This document shows positions 479 to 22,689 of a stretch of 45,957 nucleotides of DNA, piece after piece. The translations under genes and the position numbers were made by a program. The number at the start of each line of letters is the position of its first letter. The stretch's first letter is position 1. Origin of the DNA: a bacterium (lineage in GTDB: Bacteria > CG2-30-53-67 > CG2-30-70-394); the NCBI GenBank assembly GCA_024278555.1, contig JAJRSX010000188.1:1-45957 (forward strand). The letters are read 5' to 3'. Below the pieces are notes generated by a model that worked only from the letters and a program-made list of their open reading frames with translations, ran no database searches and was not told where the DNA came from.

Positions 479-2488
479 TCAGCCTCCCTCCCCCCCATCT
501 GTTTTTTCGCGCAGCGAAAAAACAGTGTCGAGTGCCTCCTGCACCTCCCGGTGAAATGGGTCGCTCCCGAGGAGGTGGCCGTGGATCCGCGCCGCGAGGC
601 CGGTGAGGACGGCGATGGCCCGGTCGATGGGGCCGCGCGGGAAGCCGGGGTCGTAGTCACCCCGGTGGGCGCAGAAGCCGAAGCCGGGACGCCACACCAG
701 CAGGCGGAAGCCGAAAAGGAGGAGCTCCTCCCACAGAAGCTCCGGCGTCCCGGCCGCGTTCGCCGCCCGATCCGCACCACGGTAGAGGGGGGCGAGGGGG
801 GAGAAGAGGTCCGGCCGGCCGTCGATCTCACGCACCAGGGCGTCGCCAAACCGCTCGCCGCTCCCCTCCCCGTCGCCGGCGGCCACCGCCGCCCGTGCCG
901 CCACCTGGTCGCACCCGGCCACCACCGCCGCCACCTCCTGCTCGTCGTTCACCAGCAGGCCATGGAGCCAGAGGCGGCCGAGGCTGAAGAGGTCACACGG
1001 CACATGCAGGGTCGGGTGGTGGAGGCAGGCGGACTCGGCCAGGGGCTCCCCCACCCGTCCGGCCACCGCCGCCTCCTGCTCCGCGGTGAGGGTACCGCTC
1101 ACCTGCAGGGCCCCACCGTCCGCCCGCTCGATCCGACCAAACAGGGCCACCTCCCCCGCTACCTGCAGGGTGAGGCCGTCATTGGCCACCGCCTGCATGG
1201 GCCCGCCGCGCACTACCGCCTGAAAGCGCCCCTTGGCCGCCGCCGTCAACTCCACCTCGGCCCGCTCGCCGCGACCGCTGGGCGCCACCAGCGGCGGCGC
1301 GCTGTAGGCCTCTCGCACCTCCGCCGGGGGGAGGAAGAGGCCGGCGGGCAGGCCGCCCGCCACCATCGGCTCGGCGCCTCCCGGGGCGATCACCCTGACC
1401 GCCGTCGTCCAACGCGCCGGCGCCGGACCGCCCGGCGAGGCGAGGCGCGCCATCACGTGCGACGGATCCAACCGCAGGTGCGGCGCCCGCAGCCGCTCGT
1501 GGAGCGCCGCCACCCCGTCGAACAACTGCAAAAAGGCGGTCGCCTTCAGATAGAGGACCTCGAGCTGGAAGAGGCCGTCGGCTTCACCCTCGAAGAGGTA
1601 CTGAGGACCGCGACGCAAGTTCGCCGCCGCCCCCTCCACCAAACCCCGCCGCGCCGCCTTCCCCTCCCCCGCGAGGCTGCGCGCGATCAGAGAATCCCAG
1701 CCGTCGCCGCCGAGGAGGGCCATCTGCTCGTCGAAGCGGAGGTGGAGCGGCTCCAGGGGGAGCGCCGCTACCGGCGCGAAGGCGATGGGTTGCAGCCGCG
1801 TCGCCGCCTCCCCCTCGCCCGCGGCGGGGAAACAGGCCGTGGCCTCATCGCACCCCACACACGGCGCCGCCCCCGCGGGCAGGGAGGCCACCGCCGCCCC
1901 CAGCCCATCGCGCCAGCCTCCGAAGTCGACCACCGCCGCCCCGCCCCCCTTCACCCCCTTGGGCAGCGAACGGGTGTAAAGAGGCGCCGTCCCGGTCTGG
2001 CTGCATGGGGGACAGTAGAGAAAGACGTGGCGGGAGGTGGCCGGCGATGCCAGGGAGAGGCGATCGAGGAGGACCTCGTCGACACACGGCACGAGCTCCG
2101 CGCCGCAGGTCGGGCAGAGGGGCGCGAAGGTGATCCACCGCTCGCTGCACAAGACGGCCATCCCACCGTCGCCGAGGAGGTCGGTGGTGGGGACGGGGAG
2201 CCGCTGGACCACCCCGGGCCGGCCGGCGAGGGCGTCGAGGGCTGCCGCCTCCCGTTGATGACGCGCCGATGCCTGCGCCTGGGTGATCTCCCCCCCCTCC
2301 AGGGGCAGGCGAGGCAGATCCCGCCCCACCTTCACCACCACCTCCTGGATCGACCCGGCGGAGCTCGCCACATGGGCCAAGAGGAGGCGCGACGTATTCC
2401 CGCCGTCGCTCACCACCCGAAGGGGGGACGCCCCTTCACCGCGGATCAGCTCCAACCGGATGTGGTTGCCGTCACCAACCCCCCTCAT
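479..2488 (-). CDS. Zinc-finger protein-kinase-like protein (probable pseudokinase)
   Basis: The 669-residue product has landmarks of the eukaryotic-type protein kinase fold in the right order. A strand with VVVKVGRD gives a beta3-type lysine (K53). QREAAALDAL gives an alphaC-type glutamate (E80), followed by PGVVQRL, which resembles the PNIVRL segment. LHERLRAPHLRLDPSHVM (329-346) stands where LHERGIVHRDLKPENVLL is expected, so the HRD aspartate is not conserved. CDLFSLGRLWLHGLL (498-512) matches the D-x-YSLG-x-LL alphaF helix. Inserted between the lobes are Cys pairs CPTC (125/128), C135, CPPC (159/162) and CVGC (210/213), suggesting zinc binding. About 150 residues separate the degraded loop from the alphaF-like helix. 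No DFG motif is clear. The ATG has GGGGGA about 7 nt upstream. No partner gene is adjacent. The kinase-fold call is pattern-based, and catalytic inactivity is inferred. Confidence 0.65.
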   Translation of the reverse strand: MRGVGDGNHIRLELIRGEGASPLRVVSDGGNTSRLLLAHVASSAGSIQEVVVKVGRDLPRLPLEGGEITQAQASARHQREAAALDALAGRPGVVQRLPVPTTDLLGDGGMAVLCSERWITFAPLCPTCGAELVPCVDEVLLDRLSLASPATSRHVFLYCPPCSQTGTAPLYTRSLPKGVKGGGAAVVDFGGWRDGLGAAVASLPAGAAPCVGCDEATACFPAAGEGEAATRLQPIAFAPVAALPLEPLHLRFDEQMALLGGDGWDSLIARSLAGEGKAARRGLVEGAAANLRRGPQYLFEGEADGLFQLEVLYLKATAFLQLFDGVAALHERLRAPHLRLDPSHVMARLASPGGPAPARWTTAVRVIAPGGAEPMVAGGLPAGLFLPPAEVREAYSAPPLVAPSGRGERAEVELTAAAKGRFQAVVRGGPMQAVANDGLTLQVAGEVALFGRIERADGGALQVSGTLTAEQEAAVAGRVGEPLAESACLHHPTLHVPCDLFSLGRLWLHGLLVNDEQEVAAVVAGCDQVAARAAVAAGDGEGSGERFGDALVREIDGRPDLFSPLAPLYRGADRAANAAGTPELLWEELLLFGFRLLVWRPGFGFCAHRGDYDPGFPRGPIDRAIAVLTGLAARIHGHLLGSDPFHREVQEALDTVFSLREKTDGGEGG
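499..525. repeat. Perfect T-tract/A-tract hairpin inside the 3' end of the pseudokinase gene
   Basis: CTGTTTTTTCGC (499-510), a GCA loop, then GCGAAAAAACAG (514-525) make a perfect 12 bp stem. Because the T run lies inside the stem, it is not a standard intrinsic terminator. It is read as codons within the last 16 of the minus-strand gene. The same design recurs at 24100-24124, where both stem and preceding C-rich tract are alike, and in decayed form at 2722-2743. Confidence 0.7.
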
Positions 2489-2633
2489 CGCAAATCCCCC
2501 AAAGAGTTGGACGCATCCTCCCCCGCCCCCGACGACGGATCAAGGGGCCGCCGGGGCTGCCCTTGGCGGCGGGGCACTCCATCCCAAGGGTTACCCGGCA
2601 GGCGAAGCGATGACCTTCCCGTCCGCGCGGCCC

Positions 2634-2717
2634 GGTAGGAGGGGGTTGCACCCCGACCCCGGCCCAAAGGGCCGGCCGCGCCATGGGCGCGGATCGGGGG
2701 TGCAACCCCCTCCTACC
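2634..2717 (-). repeat. REP-like palindromic element, copy A
   Basis: Begins GGTAGGAGGGGGTTGCACC and ends with the matching GGTGCAACCCCCTCCTACC, with an inner GGCCCAAAGGGCC palindrome and a GCGCCATGGGCGC arm. It is inverted relative to the copies at 17584, 19093 and 22175. It lies about 145 bp upstream of the pseudokinase start. Elements of this style (GTAGGAGCGG...) are common REP sequences in gammaproteobacteria and can fold into strong stem-loops. Confidence 0.85.
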
Positions 2718-2721
2718 TGAT

Positions 2722-2743
2722 TGATTTGCGCCGCGAAAAAATC
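2722..2743. repeat. Decayed copy of the T-tract/A-tract hairpin
   Basis: TGATTTGCGCCGCGAAAAAATCA keeps the outer TGATTT/AAATCA arms and the CGCGAAAAAA half of the hairpins at 499-525 and 24100-24124, but the left T tract is shortened. It directly abuts REP copy A. Confidence 0.45.
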
Positions 2744-2903
2744 ACCGCGTGGCGGCGTCGTTGTAGGTGGAGCGCAGCTCCGTGGCGGTACCGTCGGTGC
2801 GCGGCGACAGGGGGACGTCGCCCTCATCCGACCCATCGGGACCATTCGAGGCGGTGACCCGCAACGACCAGCGATTCCCCCATGAGACCGCCTCACGGCC
2901 TGT
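2742..2903 (-). pseudogene. Possible 3' remnant of an unidentified gene
   Basis: This minus-strand frame is open for 53 codons after a TGA and has protein-like composition unlike neighbouring shadow frames: it includes WGNRWSLRVTASNGPDGSDE and ends with ELRSTYNDAATR before TGA. It has no ATG, GTG or TTG start in a plausible position and no ribosome binding site. It could be the tail of a gene whose 5' part was deleted. I do not recognise a family. The remainder of the gap 2489-2996 holds only REP copy A and the small hairpin. Confidence 0.25.
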
Positions 2904-2996
2904 TCAGCCGGTCACTCCTAATTTTGGGTCCATCGGAACTCGACCCCGGAAAAATAGACTCTGGTCCACAAGCGACCCAACAGATAACTCTCCCCT

Positions 2997-5900
2997 TCAC
3001 CGCTCGCTGACGACCTCGACCATGGGGACCTCCCATTCGTCGACGCGATAGCGCGCTCGATACCCCTCGTCGCCGTCGCTGCTTTTTCGGCGCACCATGG
3101 CCAGGAGCCGGACTTCACGAACCTTCTCCAGCCGTCCGGACCAGCGGTGGTGGCTGGCCCGGGAGAGGGCGGCGATGGGGTGGCCCTGGTGGGTGACGAG
3201 GAGGCGGTTGCCGCGTGGCACGATTGCCAGGCGGGCGCCGGTGGGGGCGTCGCGCAGGGCGGCGTGGATCGGCGCACCGGCAGGCTGACGGCCGGCATAG
3301 CCGAGGTCGATCTCCTTGAGACCGAGGACGGCGTACTCGCGGTGGAGGAGTCGCTCCCGGTCGGCCGGCGCCACCTCCGCCGGGGATCCGCCCCCCCCGC
3401 CCACACCCCCCTGGCGCCGGAGGAGGTGGTCGCCACCCATCTCCGCCACATAGGGGTTGCCCTTCCCTCCGGCCTGTTGGAAGAGGCAGAGGGTCTCCCG
3501 CGCGCGGGTGACGGCGACGTAGTAGAGGCGGCGCTCCTCCTCGACCCGGCCCGCAGGGCCGGCGCTCCCCCAGCCGCCGTCGGCGATGAGGAGGTGATCG
3601 AACTCCATCCCCTTGGCCGAGTGGATCGTACTCAGGAAGACCCCCTCACCGACGAGCGGGGTGCGCCGTTGTTCCGCCAGCCAGTCGCAGACGTGCTCCT
3701 CGACGAAGCGCGCCGGCTGTGGGGTGTTCGCGGTCTCCTCACGCCAGGCCAGGAGGATCCTGCGCAGGTTGTCCCACCACCGGTTGTCGGCGCAGCCCCG
3801 GCTCTCCGCCTCCAGCCAGGCGAGGAGGGCGTCGGCGGTACAGAGCTCACCGTCGAGACCACGGAGATGGTCGAGGAGGCGGCAGTGCTCGCGCACCCGA
3901 AAGGGCTGCGGCTGCCGGTCGCGATCCATGGCCAGGGTCACGGGAATCGCTTCGGCCTCGGCCAGGGCGCGGATCGGGTTGAGGACGCTCCATTGGCGGG
4001 CGAGGAGCGCACACCGGGCCCAGGCCGTCTCCGGATCGAGCCGGCGCAGGCGCTGGAGCTCCTCCACCACGGCCACCGCCTGCCGATAGCCGTCTGCCAC
4101 CTCCACCACCTGCACCCGACCACGGCCCAGGGGGTCGAGCCGCTGCCACCGGCCCCCTGGTTCCAGCCCCTTCCGGTCGCGGTTGATCCGGATCGGGTAA
4201 CCACCCTTCATCCGATCCCGGTTGCGGGCGATCAGCCCGTTCGCCGCGGCGATGATGTGGGCGCTGCTGCGGTAGTTCTCCACCAGATAACGGGTCTCCG
4301 CCCGGTAGTCCTCGGCGAAGCGTCGGATGAAGGCAACATTGGCGCCGCGAAACTGGTAGATGTTCTGGTCGTCGTCGCCCACCGCGAGGATGGTCAGGCT
4401 CCGGTCGGGGTCGTCGAGGGTGCGCCCGGCAATCGCCGAGACCAGCTCGTACTGGACCTCGTCGATGTCCTGATACTCGTCCACAAGGATGTGGCGAAAG
4501 CCGGCGAAGAGACGATCGCGCAGGTCATCCTCCTCCATCCCCGGGAGCTCCCTGGCCCCCTGGAGGAGGGCTACCGCCTCCTTGAGAATGGCGTCGAAGT
4601 CCGGCTCGCCCCCCGCCCTCCACCCCTCCCCGAACCTCGCCGCCGAGTGGCCGGTGAGGCGCATGGCGAGGCCGTGGTAGGTCTGCACCGTCACCCCGGC
4701 TGCATCCTCCCCCACCAGTTGCCACAGGCGGCGGCGGAGTTCGTCCGCCGCCTGGCGGTTGAAGCAGAGGACGAGGATCGCGGTGGGTGGAACCCGCAAG
4801 ACGCGCAGGAGGTAACCACAGCGGTGCACCACTACCCGCGTCTTGCCGGCGCCGGGGCCGGCGAGGACCAGGAGGTTGCCTCTCTCGCCAGCCGCAACGA
4901 TCGCCTGCTGATCTGGGTTTGCCAGGTCGTCGACGATGTGCCGGAAGGAGGTCTGGCTGGTGGCCCAGCGGAGCATCTTCTCCCGTCCCGGGAACCACCG
5001 GCGGATGAACTCGGCCCGGTCCAGACGGAAGTAATCCACCGCAAGGCGCAGGGCTTGGCCGAGCTTTTCCAGGCCGTGGCGGGCGTACTCATTCATCACG
5101 TGGACCTGGAAGATCCGCTCGCTGTAGTGGTGCGCCAGCGGCTTGAAGTCGGCGCTGGTGTAACGCCGCCCCTTGGCCTCCGGGAGGACGCGGATGGTCA
5201 TGGCCGAACGGAATACCGCCAGCCCCTGCTGGAGGGTAATGACCCGCTGTTCGTGGAGAAACATCAGGGCTCGGTCCATGGCCGCCAGGGGGTCGTGGAT
5301 CTCCGCGCCGAGGAACATGTCGCGCTGGATCGCCTCGACCACCTCTTCGGCGGTGAAGTCCACCAACAGGGCGGCGCTCGGCCGGACGTCCGGCGGGATC
5401 TTGGCGAGAATCGTCTGTAGGGCGATGTGGGCCAGGGTGCGCCGCCGCTCGGCAATCTTTCGTAGGGCGGCCCAGCTCCGCTGCACCTTGACCACGAAGC
5501 GATCCTGCCCCCGGTAACGGAGGTCGATACTGCCGCGCCCAGGGGCCAGGCCGCGTCCATCCTGGGAGAGGCTGTGGAGGAGGTTACGCAGGATCTCCGG
5601 GTGGCTGGGGTGGCCCTGATCGAGGAGCCGCTGGTTGAGGCGGCGTAGAGAGAGGCTCTGCCACTCGCCGCCCTCCGCATCCGGAGCCTCCTCCGGCAGG
5701 AGCTCCAGCATTGCCTCATCCAGACGTGCGACCTGCTCCAGGGTCTCAACCGCACTGTGCTGCACCTTGTAGCGCACGTAGGCGGTGAGGGTGGTCGCCA
5801 GGGTGATGAGGCCGTGCTCCGCCATGGCGCGGAGGGTGCGCACCACCCGCTGGGCCTCGGTGTCGGCCTCTCGGTCGCCGCTGGCCGGGTCGCAGCGGAA

Positions 5901-8228
5901 GTCGGTGTTTTCGGCCAGATCGTCGGCGCTCAGCCCGCGGTTCGGCTCGCCGTTCATCAAGGCCTCCAGGAGCAGCAGCCACCGTTGCTCCTGGCGCGCC
6001 GAGAGGCCGAGGCAGGCGATCCGCTCCTGCGCCTCCGCCAGGTTCCGGACCCGTGGTGTGCCGTGAAAGAGCTGGGTGCGGTTCTGATCGCGGGCCACAA
6101 ACCCGGCCCGCTCCAGCCAGGCGACCGCGGTGCGCACCTTGGTGTCGGCCTGCCGGTCGTCGCTATCGAAGGAGGCCTCCACCCGCTCCGAATGGAGGAG
6201 CTCGCGGGCGGTGAGCACCACCTCGCCCTCACGGTTGCGGCGGGCAGCGCGCAGGCCGCGGAGGATCTGGGCGATGTCACGGCGGCTCAGCTCCGAGCGG
6301 CTGCCGAGACGGAACTGGGTCTCGATGTCGTGGTCGTCGTAGAGCAGGACGCACTGGGCGTGGCGTTGGTCGCGGCCGGCACGGCCGGCCTCCTGCAGGT
6401 AGTTTTCCAGAGAGCCGGGGATCTCCGCGTGGATCACCAGGCGCACATCCTGTTTGTCGATCCCCATGCCGAAGGCGTTGGTGGCGCAGATGACCCGGAT
6501 GGCGCCGGCGATGAAGCCATCCTGGACCTGGCGCTTCGCCGGCGCCTCCAGCCCGGCGTGGAAGGCGGCCACCTCCCACCCCTGCCGCTGTAGGTAGTCG
6601 GCCAGGTCTTCCGTGTTGCGGCGGGTAGCGCAGTAGACGATCGCGCTTCCCGAGTCGAGGCGCTCCGCGAGCACCTCATGCACCCGGGCAAACTTCTCGG
6701 CGCGGTTGACCGTCTGCACCTCGAAGGCGAGGTTGTCGCGCCGGATATCCCCGTCAAACACCTCCATCTCGACGGCCAGCTCGCGGCGCATCAGCGCACA
6801 GATCTCCTCCTTCACGTCCCCCTTGGCGGTGGCGGTGAAGCACTGGATGGGCGGGATGGCGACCCGCTGCTCGGCGGCGAGCTCGCGAATGCGGCGGACC
6901 GCGTACAGGTAGTCGGGGCGGAAGTCGTGGCCCCACTTGGAGAGGCAGTGGGCCTCGTCGAAGACCCAGCAGCCGATCTCCCGGTAACGGACCGCGTCGT
7001 TGAAGGAGCGGTTACGGAGCTGCTCCGGCGAGACGTACAGCAGCGCCACGTCGCCGGTGCGGAGCCCCTCCAGGACGGTGCCGCGCTCCGGCGGGGTGAG
7101 CATCCCGTAGAGGGCGGCGGTGTTGGGGGCGCCGGTCTTCTCGCACAGATTGTCTACCTGGTCCTTCATCAGGGCCTGGAGGGGCGAGATGACGATGGTG
7201 AGCAGGCCGCGCCGCTGGTAGCGCACCAGAGCCGGCAACTGGTAGCAGAGCGACTTGCCCCCGCCGGTGGGCAGGATGGCGAGGAGCGACCGGCTGCCCA
7301 TGGCGGTGCGGACGATCGACTCTTGCAGACTACCCCCATCCGGTAGGGCCGGCCGCGGGCGAAAGGCTGAAAAGGCGAAGTAGCGCCGAAGCTGGCCGAC
7401 CGGGTCGTGGGTGGTGCGGCAATAGCGGCAGTCCGGCTGGTCGCACGGCATGTCGCGCAACCGGGTGAGGAGCGGTGCGACCTCCGGGAACTGGAGACGG
7501 ACCCAGGGAGGCAGGACCGAGTTGCCCCCGGCCACGGCGAGCCACGCCAGGCCATAGGCGAGGGCGATCCGCTGGTCCGGGTCCGCCAGGGCCTCCTCTG
7601 CCACTTGCGGCAGGGCGTCGGCGCACACCGTGGCGGTGAGCTCACGCTGAAGCAGGTTGCGAGCCTGCTCTTCAGTGACGACCGCCGTCCCCAAGGCGTC
7701 AAACAGGGCGGCGAGGCCGCGCCCCATGCGCTCGTCGGCGAGACAGAACCGGAGCAGGGCGACCCGGTCGGGGTTGCCTGCCTGCTGGCCGGCCAGGCTC
7801 TCCCACTGGTCGCGAAAGAGGGAGAGGGCGAGGCGCGCGTCCGCCACCGGGTCATTGATGGCATCGCGCACCAGCTTGTAGTCCTTCACCAGCCGGTGGT
7901 ACGGGTTCTCGGGAAAGGCGAGCGGGGAGAGGTAGAGGGTGTCGATGGCCTCCATCTCCAGTAGCCGCAACCCCGGAGCGAGGCCGCGCAGGATCGACAG
8001 GTCGTGACGCAGGAGGTTGTGGCCGAGGAGCCGCGCCGACGGAGAGCAGAAGGCGTCCAGGGCACGGAGCCCCTCACCCCGATCGAAGTGGCCACGGCGC
8101 GCAAAGGTTGCCTCCGACCCTTCCGCGACGAAGCGGCACGCGCCGATGGCATACAGCTCGCCGCTCTCGTTAACCTCGATGTCAACGGCAACCGTGCGTG
8201 CCAAAAATGTGTCCGGCGGTGACACCAA
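2997..8228 (-). CDS. DEDD exonuclease-RecQ helicase-UvrD/REP helicase fusion
   Basis: The 1,743-residue protein joins three DNA-processing modules. An N-terminal DEDD-type 3'-5' exonuclease domain shows AVDIEVN (D16, E18), LLGHNLLRHDLSIL and NDPVADARLA (D130). A CDQPDCRYC cluster (262-270) follows. The RecQ-type SF2 helicase has LPTGGGKSLCYQLPAL (Walker A, about 319), FDEAHCLSKWGHDFRPDY (DEAH, 424-427), FTATA, and helicase motif VI AGRAGRDQRH near 614. The C-terminal SF1 module of UvrD/Rep type has LAGPGAGKTRVVV (about 1125), VDEYQDID (about 1253), VGDDDQNIYQFRGAN, STIHSAKGMEFDHL (about 1536) and YVAVTRARETL. The role is presumably DNA repair or recombination, or clearing aberrant DNA; the substrate cannot be told from sequence. 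An in-frame TAG lies immediately before the TTG at 8228. GTG at 8225 and a TTG near 8202 are alternatives, and no clear Shine-Dalgarno is visible. It stands alone, with no visible defence partner. Confidence 0.93.
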   Translation of the reverse strand: MVSPPDTFLARTVAVDIEVNESGELYAIGACRFVAEGSEATFARRGHFDRGEGLRALDAFCSPSARLLGHNLLRHDLSILRGLAPGLRLLEMEAIDTLYLSPLAFPENPYHRLVKDYKLVRDAINDPVADARLALSLFRDQWESLAGQQAGNPDRVALLRFCLADERMGRGLAALFDALGTAVVTEEQARNLLQRELTATVCADALPQVAEEALADPDQRIALAYGLAWLAVAGGNSVLPPWVRLQFPEVAPLLTRLRDMPCDQPDCRYCRTTHDPVGQLRRYFAFSAFRPRPALPDGGSLQESIVRTAMGSRSLLAILPTGGGKSLCYQLPALVRYQRRGLLTIVISPLQALMKDQVDNLCEKTGAPNTAALYGMLTPPERGTVLEGLRTGDVALLYVSPEQLRNRSFNDAVRYREIGCWVFDEAHCLSKWGHDFRPDYLYAVRRIRELAAEQRVAIPPIQCFTATAKGDVKEEICALMRRELAVEMEVFDGDIRRDNLAFEVQTVNRAEKFARVHEVLAERLDSGSAIVYCATRRNTEDLADYLQRQGWEVAAFHAGLEAPAKRQVQDGFIAGAIRVICATNAFGMGIDKQDVRLVIHAEIPGSLENYLQEAGRAGRDQRHAQCVLLYDDHDIETQFRLGSRSELSRRDIAQILRGLRAARRNREGEVVLTARELLHSERVEASFDSDDRQADTKVRTAVAWLERAGFVARDQNRTQLFHGTPRVRNLAEAQERIACLGLSARQEQRWLLLLEALMNGEPNRGLSADDLAENTDFRCDPASGDREADTEAQRVVRTLRAMAEHGLITLATTLTAYVRYKVQHSAVETLEQVARLDEAMLELLPEEAPDAEGGEWQSLSLRRLNQRLLDQGHPSHPEILRNLLHSLSQDGRGLAPGRGSIDLRYRGQDRFVVKVQRSWAALRKIAERRRTLAHIALQTILAKIPPDVRPSAALLVDFTAEEVVEAIQRDMFLGAEIHDPLAAMDRALMFLHEQRVITLQQGLAVFRSAMTIRVLPEAKGRRYTSADFKPLAHHYSERIFQVHVMNEYARHGLEKLGQALRLAVDYFRLDRAEFIRRWFPGREKMLRWATSQTSFRHIVDDLANPDQQAIVAAGERGNLLVLAGPGAGKTRVVVHRCGYLLRVLRVPPTAILVLCFNRQAADELRRRLWQLVGEDAAGVTVQTYHGLAMRLTGHSAARFGEGWRAGGEPDFDAILKEAVALLQGARELPGMEEDDLRDRLFAGFRHILVDEYQDIDEVQYELVSAIAGRTLDDPDRSLTILAVGDDDQNIYQFRGANVAFIRRFAEDYRAETRYLVENYRSSAHIIAAANGLIARNRDRMKGGYPIRINRDRKGLEPGGRWQRLDPLGRGRVQVVEVADGYRQAVAVVEELQRLRRLDPETAWARCALLARQWSVLNPIRALAEAEAIPVTLAMDRDRQPQPFRVREHCRLLDHLRGLDGELCTADALLAWLEAESRGCADNRWWDNLRRILLAWREETANTPQPARFVEEHVCDWLAEQRRTPLVGEGVFLSTIHSAKGMEFDHLLIADGGWGSAGPAGRVEEERRLYYVAVTRARETLCLFQQAGGKGNPYVAEMGGDHLLRRQGGVGGGGGSPAEVAPADRERLLHREYAVLGLKEIDLGYAGRQPAGAPIHAALRDAPTGARLAIVPRGNRLLVTHQGHPIAALSRASHHRWSGRLEKVREVRLLAMVRRKSSDGDEGYRARYRVDEWEVPMVEVVSER

Positions 8229-19324: not shown

Positions 19325-22147
19325 TCACCGCTCCAGCAACGGCGCCAGGTACCGCCCCGTGTGCGACGCCGGGTTGGCGGCGATCTCCTCGGGGGTGCCG
19401 GTGGCGATGATCTCGCCACCGCCGTCGCCGCCCTCGGGGCCGAGGTCGATGATCGTATCGGCGCACTTGATGACGTCGAGGTTGTGCTCGATCACCACCA
19501 CCGTGTTGCCCTCGGCCACCAGCCGGTCGAGGACCGCGAGGAGCTGCTCCACGTCGGCGAAGTGGAGGCCGGTGGTGGGCTCGTCGAGGATGTAGAGGGT
19601 ACGGCCGGTGGCCCGCTTGGCGAGCTCGCGGGAGAGCTTCACCCGCTGCGCCTCACCGCCGGAGAGGGTAGTGGCGCGCTGGCCGAGCTGGATGTAGCCG
19701 AGCCCCACGTCCATCAGGGTCTGCAGCCGCCGGCGGATCGCCGGTACCGCGGCGAAAAAGGCGAGCCCCTCCTCCACGGTCATCGCCAGGATCTCGGCGA
19801 TGTTCTTGCCCCTGTAGTGGACCTCCAGGGTCTCGCGGTTGTAGCGCAGCCCCTGGCACTGGTCGCAGGTGACGAAGAGGTCCGGGAGGAAGTGCATCTC
19901 GATGCGGGTGACACCGTCGCCGTGGCAGCTCTCGCACCGGCCGCCCTTGACGTTGAAGGAGAAGCGACCCGGCCGGTAGCCGCGGATGCGCGCCTCCGGG
20001 ACCTCCGCCAGGAGCGCCCGGATGTCGGTAAAGAGGCCGGTGTAGGTGGCGGGGTTGGAGCGGGGGGTGCGGCCGATCGGGGTCTGGTCGATGGCGATCA
20101 CCTTGTCGACGTGGACCAGGCCGTCGATGCGGTCGCACGCCCCCACCGGCTCGGTGGCGCGGTGGAGGTGGTGGGCGAGGCCGCGATAGAGGCAGTCGTT
20201 CACCAGCGACGACTTGCCCGAGCCGGAGACGCCGGTGACGCAGATGAAGCGGCCGAGGGGGAAGGTCGCGTCGATCCCCTTGAGGTTGTGCTCGGCCGCC
20301 CCGCGCACGGTGATCGCCTCACCGCTGCCGGTGCGCCGCGCCTTTGGCACGCCGATGGCGCGGCGGCCGGCGAGGAAGGCGCCGGTGAGCGACCGCTCGG
20401 CGCCGAGGATCGCCGCCAGGTCACCCGCCGCCACCACCTCGCCGCCGTGGACCCCGGCGCCCGGCCCCATGTCGACGATGAAGTCGGCGCTCCGAATGGT
20501 CTCCTCGTCGTGCTCCACCACCACCACCGTGTTGCCGAGGTCGCGCAGGCGGCAGAGGGTGGCCAGGAGCCGGTCGTTGTCGCGCTGGTGCAGGCCGATG
20601 GAGGGCTCATCCAGCACGTACATCACCCCGACCAGGGCGGCGCCGATCTGGGTGGCGAGGCGGATCCGCTGCCCCTCGCCGCCGGAGAGGGTGGCGGCGG
20701 TGCGGTCGAGGGTCAGGTAGCCGAGCCCCACCGCCTGCAAGAAGCCGAGGCGGGCGTTGATCTCCTTGAGGATCTTCTCGGCGATCTGCGCCGCCCGCGG
20801 CGAAAGCTCCAGGTCGGCGAAGAGGGCGACGGCGTCGGCGATCGCCAGGCGCACCACATCATCGATGTTGTGGCCCGCGACCCGCACCGCCAGGGCCTCG
20901 GGCTTCAGCCGCCGGCCGCCGCACGCGCCGCACGGGTGGCGCCCCATGTACCCCTCGATCTCCTCGCGCAGCCGCTCCGACTCCGCCTCCCGGTAGCGCC
21001 GCTCGAGCTGCGGGATCACCCCGGAAAAGGGGCGGTGGCGCACCCGGCCGGTGTGGGCGCTTCTCACCGCCACCACCTCGGTACCGCCGCCGAAAAGCAG
21101 CAGGTGGCGGACCTCCTCCGGCAGCTCCCCAAACGGCACATCGAGGGAGAAGTCGTACCGCTTGGCCAGGGCCACCAGCCACGGCCGAAAGAAGCGGGTG
21201 TGGCGCCCGGCCCACGGGGCGATCGCCCCCTCGTGGAGGGTGAGGCTCGGATCCGGCACCACCCGCTCCGGGTCGATCTGCTGCACGAAGCCCAGCCCGG
21301 AGCAGGCAATGCACGCCCCCTGGGGGGCGTTGAAGGAGAAGGAGCGGGGGGTGAGCTCGGCAAAGGAGCGGGAGCAGGCGAGGCAGGCGAGGCGCTCGGA
21401 GAAGGTCTGCTCGTCACCGCCGGTGAGGTCGTGGATCACCACCACCCCGTCGCCCAGCTCCAGGGCGGTCTCCACCGAGTCGGCGATCCGGCCGCGCGCC
21501 GACGGCTTCACCACCACCCGGTCGACCACCACCTCGATGGTGTGGCGCCGCTTGCGATCGAGGGTGGGCGGCTCGCGGTCCACCAGCTCCACCACCTCGC
21601 CGTCCACCCGGGCGCGCACATACCCCTGGCGGACCATCGCCTCGAACTCGGCCCGGTACTCCCCCTTGCGATCGCGCACCAGGGGCGAGAGGACCAGCAG
21701 GCGGCTCCCCTCCGCCAGAGCGAGGATGGCGTCGACGATCTGGGTCGGGGTCTGGGCGGTGATCGGCCGGCCGCAGCTCGGGCAGTGGGGCTCGCCGATA
21801 CGGGCAAAGAGCAGCCGCAGGTAGTCGTAGATCTCGGTCACCGTGCCGACCGTGGAGCGCGGGTTGCGGGAGGTGGTCTTCTGCTCGATGGAGATCGCGG
21901 GAGAGAGCCCCTCGATCGCCTCCACCTCCGGCTTCTCCATCCGCTCCAGAAACTGGCGGGCGTAGGTGGAGAGGGACTCCACGTAGCGCCGCTGCCCCTC
22001 GGCGTAGAGGGTATCGAAGGCGAGCGACGACTTGCCCGAGCCCGACAGGCCGGTGACCACCACCAGCCGGTCGCGGGGGATCGTCAGGTCGACCCCCTTC
22101 AGGTTGTGCTCCCGCGCCCCGCGGATGTGGATGGCGTCGCTGCCCAT
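19325..22147 (-). CDS. uvrA: Excinuclease ABC subunit A
   Basis: The damage-recognition ATPase of nucleotide excision repair, which loads UvrB on lesions. At 940 residues it has the usual length. It carries two ABC modules: [19 protein letters not shown] and [16 protein letters not shown] in the first, [18 protein letters not shown] and [15 protein letters not shown] in the second. The zinc-finger cysteines are present in [25 protein letters not shown] and [12 protein letters not shown]. The ATG at 22147 gives [20 protein letters not shown], the family start; longer reading would run into REP copy D. No Shine-Dalgarno is evident and no SOS box was recognised. Confidence 0.97.
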
Positions 22148-22174
22148 GGGCCGCGGAGTGTAGCCCTTTCGACC

Positions 22175-22259
22175 GGCAGGAGCGGGTTGCACCCGCGATC
22201 CGCGCCGCAGGCGCGGCCGGCCCAAAGGGCCGGGGTCGGGGGAACAACCCCCTCCTACC
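22175..22259 (+). repeat. REP-like palindromic element, copy D
   Basis: GGCAGGAGCGGGTTGCACCC, GCGCCGCAGGCGCGG, GGCCCAAAGGGCC and terminal CCCCCTCCTACC. Its right edge overlaps the last codons of vapC, and on the minus strand the TAG in its GGTAGGAG end is the vapC stop codon. It also occupies the 5' side of uvrA. Confidence 0.9.
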
Positions 22260-22689
22260 GCGCCAAGGGATCACGCACGCGCAGCCCCGGGAGCGAGACG
22301 AAGGCCGCGTCGTGGGTCCAGATCTCCCGGCCTCCGCTCTCGAAGACGGTGAGGGCGATCTGGAGATCGAAGATCCGCACGCCGGTGACCTTGAGGTCGG
22401 CGGCGAGCTGCCAGAGCCGCTCGCCAAAGCCGATTCCGGGCGTCCAGACCCGGAGACCACCGTCGGCCACCAGGCCAGCCAGGAAACCGGCCGCCTCCTC
22501 CACCGTGGAGGGGCGGCCGGTGGCCGCCGGATGGGTGACGACGGACCAAAACTCCGAAACGGTGGCGGCGGCAATGCCACACCCCTCGCCAGAGCCACAC
22601 GCCTCCTCGATCGCCCTCTGGGCCGCACCGTGCTCGGGGGTGGCGGCCCGGTGGGCGTAGATGAGGAGGTTGGTGTCGAGGGCGATCAT
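22255..22689 (-). CDS. vapC: VapC-type PIN-domain toxin ribonuclease
   Basis: The 144-residue PIN domain protein begins [14 protein letters not shown] (D5), with TVSEFWSVV giving the central acidic residue near 45, and [12 protein letters not shown] and EIWTHDAAF giving the C-terminal acidic residues. VapC toxins cleave structured RNA, usually tRNA or rRNA, when freed from VapB. Its ATG overlaps the vapB stop by 4 nt, the usual toxin-antitoxin arrangement. The last codons and stop are formed by REP copy D, so the native C-terminus may have been altered by the insertion. Confidence 0.88.

Follow-up and report, generated by a model that had tools for sequence, protein, structure and literature searches.

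Proteins that fuse a helicase to a nuclease hold a central place in DNA repair and in bacterial immunity. In RecBCD and AddAB the nuclease is of the PD-(D/E)XK type, and RecB and RecD have opposite polarity. The exonuclease of human WRN belongs to the DEDDy subclass of DnaQ-like nucleases. B. subtilis DinG is described as a DEDD exonuclease joined to an SF2 XPD-like helicase (PMC12525004). Here we describe a gene in the window, the whole 45,957-nucleotide stretch of bacterial DNA that was analysed, which encodes a single multi-domain DNA-processing protein. Its modules follow one another in the order DnaQ-like exonuclease, Cys3-His knuckle, RecQ core, probable winged-helix region and UvrD core (Table 1). 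Profiles, predicted fold and homologues all agree with the proposal of the earlier note that exonuclease, RecQ and UvrD modules share one chain.

Table 1. Features of the fusion gene, with residues counted along the protein and positions along the window
Feature	Residues	Positions	Strand	Basis
Whole gene, exonuclease-RecQ-winged helix-UvrD fusion	1-1743	2997..8228	-	1,743 aa, TTG start; 67 full-length homologues, 45-56% identity
Predicted DnaQ-like (DEDD) exonuclease domain	1-140	7809..8228	-	AlphaFold2, Foldseek, conservation
Cys-rich knuckle (C262, C267, C270, H274), between exonuclease and RecQ core	262-274	7407..7445	-	Conservation
RecQ-type SF2 helicase core	281-636	6321..7388	-	TIGR00614, PF00270, PF00271
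Central region	637-1090	4959..6320	-	AlphaFold2, Foldseek; no Pfam match
UvrD/Rep-type SF1A helicase core	1091-1585	3474..4958	-	PF00580, PF13361; key residues invariant
C-terminal tail and stop	1586-1743 + stop	2997..3473	-	Least conserved segment, 33% mean identity

The gene boundaries given previously are exact, although no strand was named with them. On the minus strand the frame runs through 1,743 codons with no internal stop, whereas several stops interrupt the stated frame when the same interval is read on the plus strand. Homologues were collected by a scan of genome contigs, from which the best 80 of 527 related loci were taken. Among these 80, 67 hold one uninterrupted full-length frame with the same module order, and they come from several phyla. 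We checked 15 catalytic residues across the three modules: the metal-binding acids D16, E18, D76 and D130 of the exonuclease; K325, D424, E425, R616 and R619 of the RecQ core; and K1129, D1250, E1251, Q1288, R1320 and R1575 of the UvrD core. All 15 are identical, together, in 67/67 homologues. Complete plasmids from Thiothrix, Rhizobium, Cereibacter, Sulfitobacter and others also carry full-length copies.

These homologues bear directly on whether the fusion might be an artefact, two genes joined by a frameshift or by mis-assembly. The genome is fragmented (211 contigs) and high GC yields long spurious frames, both of which speak for such an error, but 67 independent full-length homologues, as well as copies on complete plasmids, show the same unbroken architecture, which rules the error out, and we regard its probability as negligible. 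The two outcomes that the earlier note had named as fatal to its proposal, a merger of separate genes and loss of catalytic residues in close homologues, were thus both looked for, and neither was found. The plasmid-encoded proteins (~1,700 aa), which share the architecture, are annotated as "RecQ family ATP-dependent DNA helicase", a generic automatic name. The parts are known, and the three-module combination is widespread and already present in databases under that name; a literature search, with most subscription papers and bioRxiv outside its range, found no paper on the fusion. Behind a generic "RecQ helicase" label, the protein is a candidate, and a tractable one, for a DNA-processing or defence factor that has gone unrecognised.

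The RecQ core contains Walker A (K325), DEAH (424-427), the aromatic-rich loop WGHDFRP and motif VI QEAGRAGRD; the loop that follows DEAH (DEAHCLSKWGHDFRPDY) and the sequence YLQEAGRAGRD are nearly invariant among homologues. Pfam places DEAD at 301-473 and Helicase_C at 512-620, and the NCBIfam RecQ-family model TIGR00614 scores 294.9 bits, above its cut-off of 219.8, which assigns the core to the RecQ family of SF2. Its nearest solved relatives are RecQ, BLM and RECQ5. Models for the canonical bacterial RecQ equivalog match the helicase core only and stay below their cut-offs (TIGR01389, 337.3 versus 640.2 bits; PRK11057, 262.9 versus 1015 bits). The UvrD core contains Walker A GPGAGKT (1124-1130), DEYQD (1250-1254), GDDDQNIY, NYRS and motif VI VAVTRA. 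It belongs to the UvrD/Rep group of SF1A by PF00580 (146.2 bits versus 23) and PF13361 (63.3 versus 25.6), with the profile matches spanning residues 1107-1582, and scores under the equivalog cut-offs for UvrD (190.9 versus 1144 bits), PcrA (183.1 versus 911) and Rep (142.2 versus 951). Because these equivalog cut-offs are unreached, both helicases are family members rather than RecQ, UvrD, PcrA or Rep proper.

RecQ helicases move 3'->5', and so do the UvrD/Rep/PcrA helicases. The description of the two motors as opposed helicase families, if polarity was meant, is therefore not borne out. Two 3'->5' motors on opposite strands of one duplex would diverge or converge instead of travelling side by side as in RecBCD.

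Two further elements separate the catalytic modules. In the knuckle, C262, C267 and C270 are present in 67/67 homologues and H274 in 64/67, a Cys3-His pattern that makes it a probable Zn site. The central region matches no Pfam family and no PDB sequence. Its AlphaFold2 model, of moderate confidence (pLDDT 79.4, pTM 0.51), mixes helix and strand, and Foldseek returned only weak, non-significant matches to RPC62, PadR, RTP and Zur/Fur-type proteins, several of which have winged helices. On this model, the region is probably an array of winged-helix-like elements.

No Pfam exonuclease profile matched any of 27 family members (the fusion protein and 26 homologues), and searching PDB sequences by profile likewise gave nothing significant. 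We therefore rely on predicted structure and on motifs (D16, E18, GHNLLRHD76 and D130). The AlphaFold2 model of residues 1-300, computed from an input alignment of 61 sequences, has a pLDDT of 92.4 and a pTM of 0.88. Foldseek ranks a family-B DNA polymerase first, with E 5e-4 and no other match below 0.001, followed with weaker E-values by the DinG exonuclease-helicase in second place, E. coli Cap18 exonuclease, TREX1 and Klenow; the matches to DinG, Cap18 and TREX1 have a Foldseek probability of 1.00. All of these proteins contain DnaQ-like exonuclease domains. Fold and motifs, rather than a Pfam match, thus place the N-terminal domain of the model in the DnaQ-like (DEDD) superfamily.

The domain falls into neither described subclass, as defined by His five residues (DEDDh) or Tyr four residues (DEDDy) before the last acid. 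Across the 67 homologues, the DEDDh position holds Asn in 51, Ser in 10 and Ala in 6, and the DEDDy position has Asp or Asn in most of them and Tyr in none. The fusion protein itself has Asn125 and Asp126 at these positions, and distant homologues, down to ~29% identity, likewise have neither the His nor the Tyr. The earlier statement that all key motifs are intact consequently holds for both helicases and goes too far for the exonuclease, in which the general base is replaced family-wide, in the 67 homologues and the distant set alike. Three other residues, H75, H111 and K115, are invariant in 67/67. Of these, H111 and K115 belong to a flexible loop preceding the last acid, where pLDDT is low (around residues 111-120) and the model is least certain; either could be an alternative general base.

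Because the canonical general base is missing, the nuclease may be slow, differently activated or DNA-binding only. In the extreme case the domain would be catalytically dead, or would sense DNA, and the protein would be a dual helicase only, which is compatible with a function in either defence or repair. We consider this rather unlikely: Asn, Ser or Ala at the DEDDh position and the absence of the DEDDy Tyr in all homologues examined argue for it, but dead domains normally lose their acids, whereas here the four metal ligands are kept in 67/67 along with H75, H111 and K115, and the two loop residues could furnish another base. If the nuclease is active, the view of DnaQ-like exonucleases as two subclasses, DEDDh and DEDDy, would be called into question.

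Within the window, the fusion gene is surrounded by genes for a ferredoxin/metallo-beta-lactamase-type protein and by purB-, purF- and purL-like genes, with uvrA farther off. PADLOC matched none of ten neighbouring proteins, in agreement with the earlier observation that there is no obvious repair or defence operon. Downstream of the fusion, positions 479-2488 (minus strand) encode an uncharacterised 669-aa protein with no match in Pfam, PADLOC or seven relatives from the class. Separately, a predicted tRNA-Pro (22173-22260, minus strand) extends over the initial ~50 bases of the longest uvrA frame (19325-22225); uvrA therefore probably begins farther inside that frame.

The suggestion that homologues be searched for links to defence islands gave a divided answer: a minority have defence genes as neighbours, and there is no consistent partner. 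Most close homologues, like the window copy, lie among housekeeping genes, and all-against-all clustering of the 681 proteins called in the best 80 of 527 loci revealed no recurrent partner. A type I restriction system lies near the Allochromatium plasmid copy, and likewise at locus L038, and the Thiothrix plasmid copy has CRISPR type I-D genes as neighbours. In two distant members, defence-type genes and the fusion stand in a row on one strand: at L159, a type III methyltransferase and a type III restriction enzyme (969-7397) precede the fusion, likely an operon judging from this arrangement, and at L153 the fusion follows a type III restriction enzyme and a PsyrT-like RecQ helicase (1235-6474). 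PADLOC tallies of neighbours, compared with those from elsewhere in the same genomes, hint that restriction-type genes are more frequent around distant members and not around close homologues, with small numbers, models that cross-react with housekeeping helicases and regulators, home-made gene calls and hand-picked control regions. Given tallies this small and cross-reactive, we claim no enrichment and set aside a strong association with defence islands.

The fusion gene is accessory and patchily distributed. The host genome has one copy in addition to separate RecQ-like and UvrD-like genes, and neither a full-length match nor a nuclease-domain match was found in one congener and six other genomes of the class. 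Across 386 sampled genomes spread over the domain, the nuclease domain of the family occurs in nine, including the host genome; one genome has three copies and another has two. One of three copies in a genome (L124, G281:C65:966-1835) has an in-frame TGA in the nuclease region, leaves a frame of only 527 aa and is a probable pseudogene. Carriers make up 3/18 and 5/16 genomes within two further classes and 30/126 within a third. In the protein tree, phyla are mixed on well-supported branches, with 18 label changes versus a minimum of 8, which suggests transfer without proving it. A pattern-based scan of 2.9 million viral contigs found the fusion in six, two of which have a phage-type replication protein or methyltransferases beside it.

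Presence and absence of the gene can be compared in genus g115, which includes both carriers and non-carriers. In four carriers one and the same pair of conserved genes flanks it, with a flank spacing of ~8.4 kb. In six non-carriers (L215, L217, L218, L219, L220 and L221), alignment to the carrier L214 breaks at 2050/2051 and at 7341-7345. These breakpoints closely bracket the L214 gene (2146-7344) and delimit a unit of ~5.3 kb at an intergenic site, L214:2051-7344, which contains no integrase or partner gene. No remnant of the gene was detected by tblastn in the six non-carriers; a seventh, L216, has a larger gap with an identical left edge. Because a tree of the flanks intersperses carriers with non-carriers, repeated loss, repeated gain and recombinational exchange could each explain the pattern. 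Among relatives from the class of the window genome, the downstream neighbour (479-2488) has no match and conservation is also lacking on the other side of the fusion, so no empty site could be aligned. Two motor superfamilies and a nuclease are kept intact in one protein across several phyla, and yet this protein is dispensable and is acquired or lost precisely as a single gene.

That the protein acts on recombination intermediates or on foreign DNA, as the earlier note suggested, is plausible. In the proposed mechanism, the RecQ core and winged helices would engage branched, gapped or partly single-stranded DNA, the RecQ-type and UvrD-type motors would pull on one strand each or work alternately, and the DnaQ-like nuclease would trim the exposed 3' strand. 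Together these activities would take apart the intermediates formed when invading DNA, or a damaged chromosome, recombines or replicates. We give about an even chance to a stand-alone accessory helicase-nuclease that leans towards defence against foreign DNA. Control of recombination or action against foreign DNA appears slightly more likely than core housekeeping repair, because the pattern is patchy, compatible with plasmids and prophages, and one of single-gene gain and loss. Repair stays alive as an explanation because most close copies lie in a housekeeping setting, and, against the lean towards defence, an accessory repair gene would produce an identical distribution.

In the repair alternative, the protein would be an accessory genome-maintenance enzyme resembling WRN or DinG, whose motors would act on stalled forks and recombination intermediates, reversing them or taking them apart, while the nuclease would clean up ends, with no role against foreign DNA. 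It has an appreciable chance, short of even. Its order of exonuclease and RecQ is that of WRN, DinG is also an exonuclease-helicase, and both the window copy and most close homologues lie amid housekeeping genes. By contrast, patchy distribution, carriage on plasmids and precise single-gene gain and loss within a genus are unusual for core repair, and RecQ-like and UvrD-like genes are already present separately in the host genome. The favoured lean towards defence has a bolder form, which we consider less likely than not: a widespread, horizontally moving and undescribed single-gene defence or anti-recombination system, whose nuclease would be a new DEDD subclass with H111 or K115 as alternative base.

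Known defence systems resemble the fusion in parts. Three helicases of PADLOC defence systems, DpdF and PsyrT (RecQ-like) and GajB (UvrD-like), give local matches, each to one helicase core: the DpdF NCBIfam model scores 192 bits against a cut-off of 550, and the best PADLOC 2023 component match (359 bits) covers residues 279-650 only. Partners of known PADLOC 2023 systems do not adjoin the fusion, with no recurrent neighbour family across the loci and no such partner among the ten neighbours scanned in the window. With one helicase core matching and partners absent from these neighbours, we reject membership of Dpd, Gabija or PsyrTA. RecBCD and AddAB, like the fusion, unite a nuclease with two helicase-like modules in one machine, but they are multi-subunit and have a PD-(D/E)XK nuclease, whereas the fusion is one chain with a DnaQ-like domain; AddA and RecB models score far below cut-off on it. 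DinG is closer in being a bacterial exonuclease-helicase in one chain and the second-best fold match of the nuclease domain, although its helicase is XPD-like rather than RecQ and it has no UvrD module. WRN likewise lacks a UvrD module, its DEDDy Tyr is missing from the fusion, and the RecQ core of the fusion is closer to bacterial RecQ and BLM. Nevertheless, in WRN as in the fusion a DnaQ-like exonuclease at the N-terminus precedes a RecQ core within one chain, and the RecQ core of the fusion matches WRN structures with an E-value of ~1e-42.
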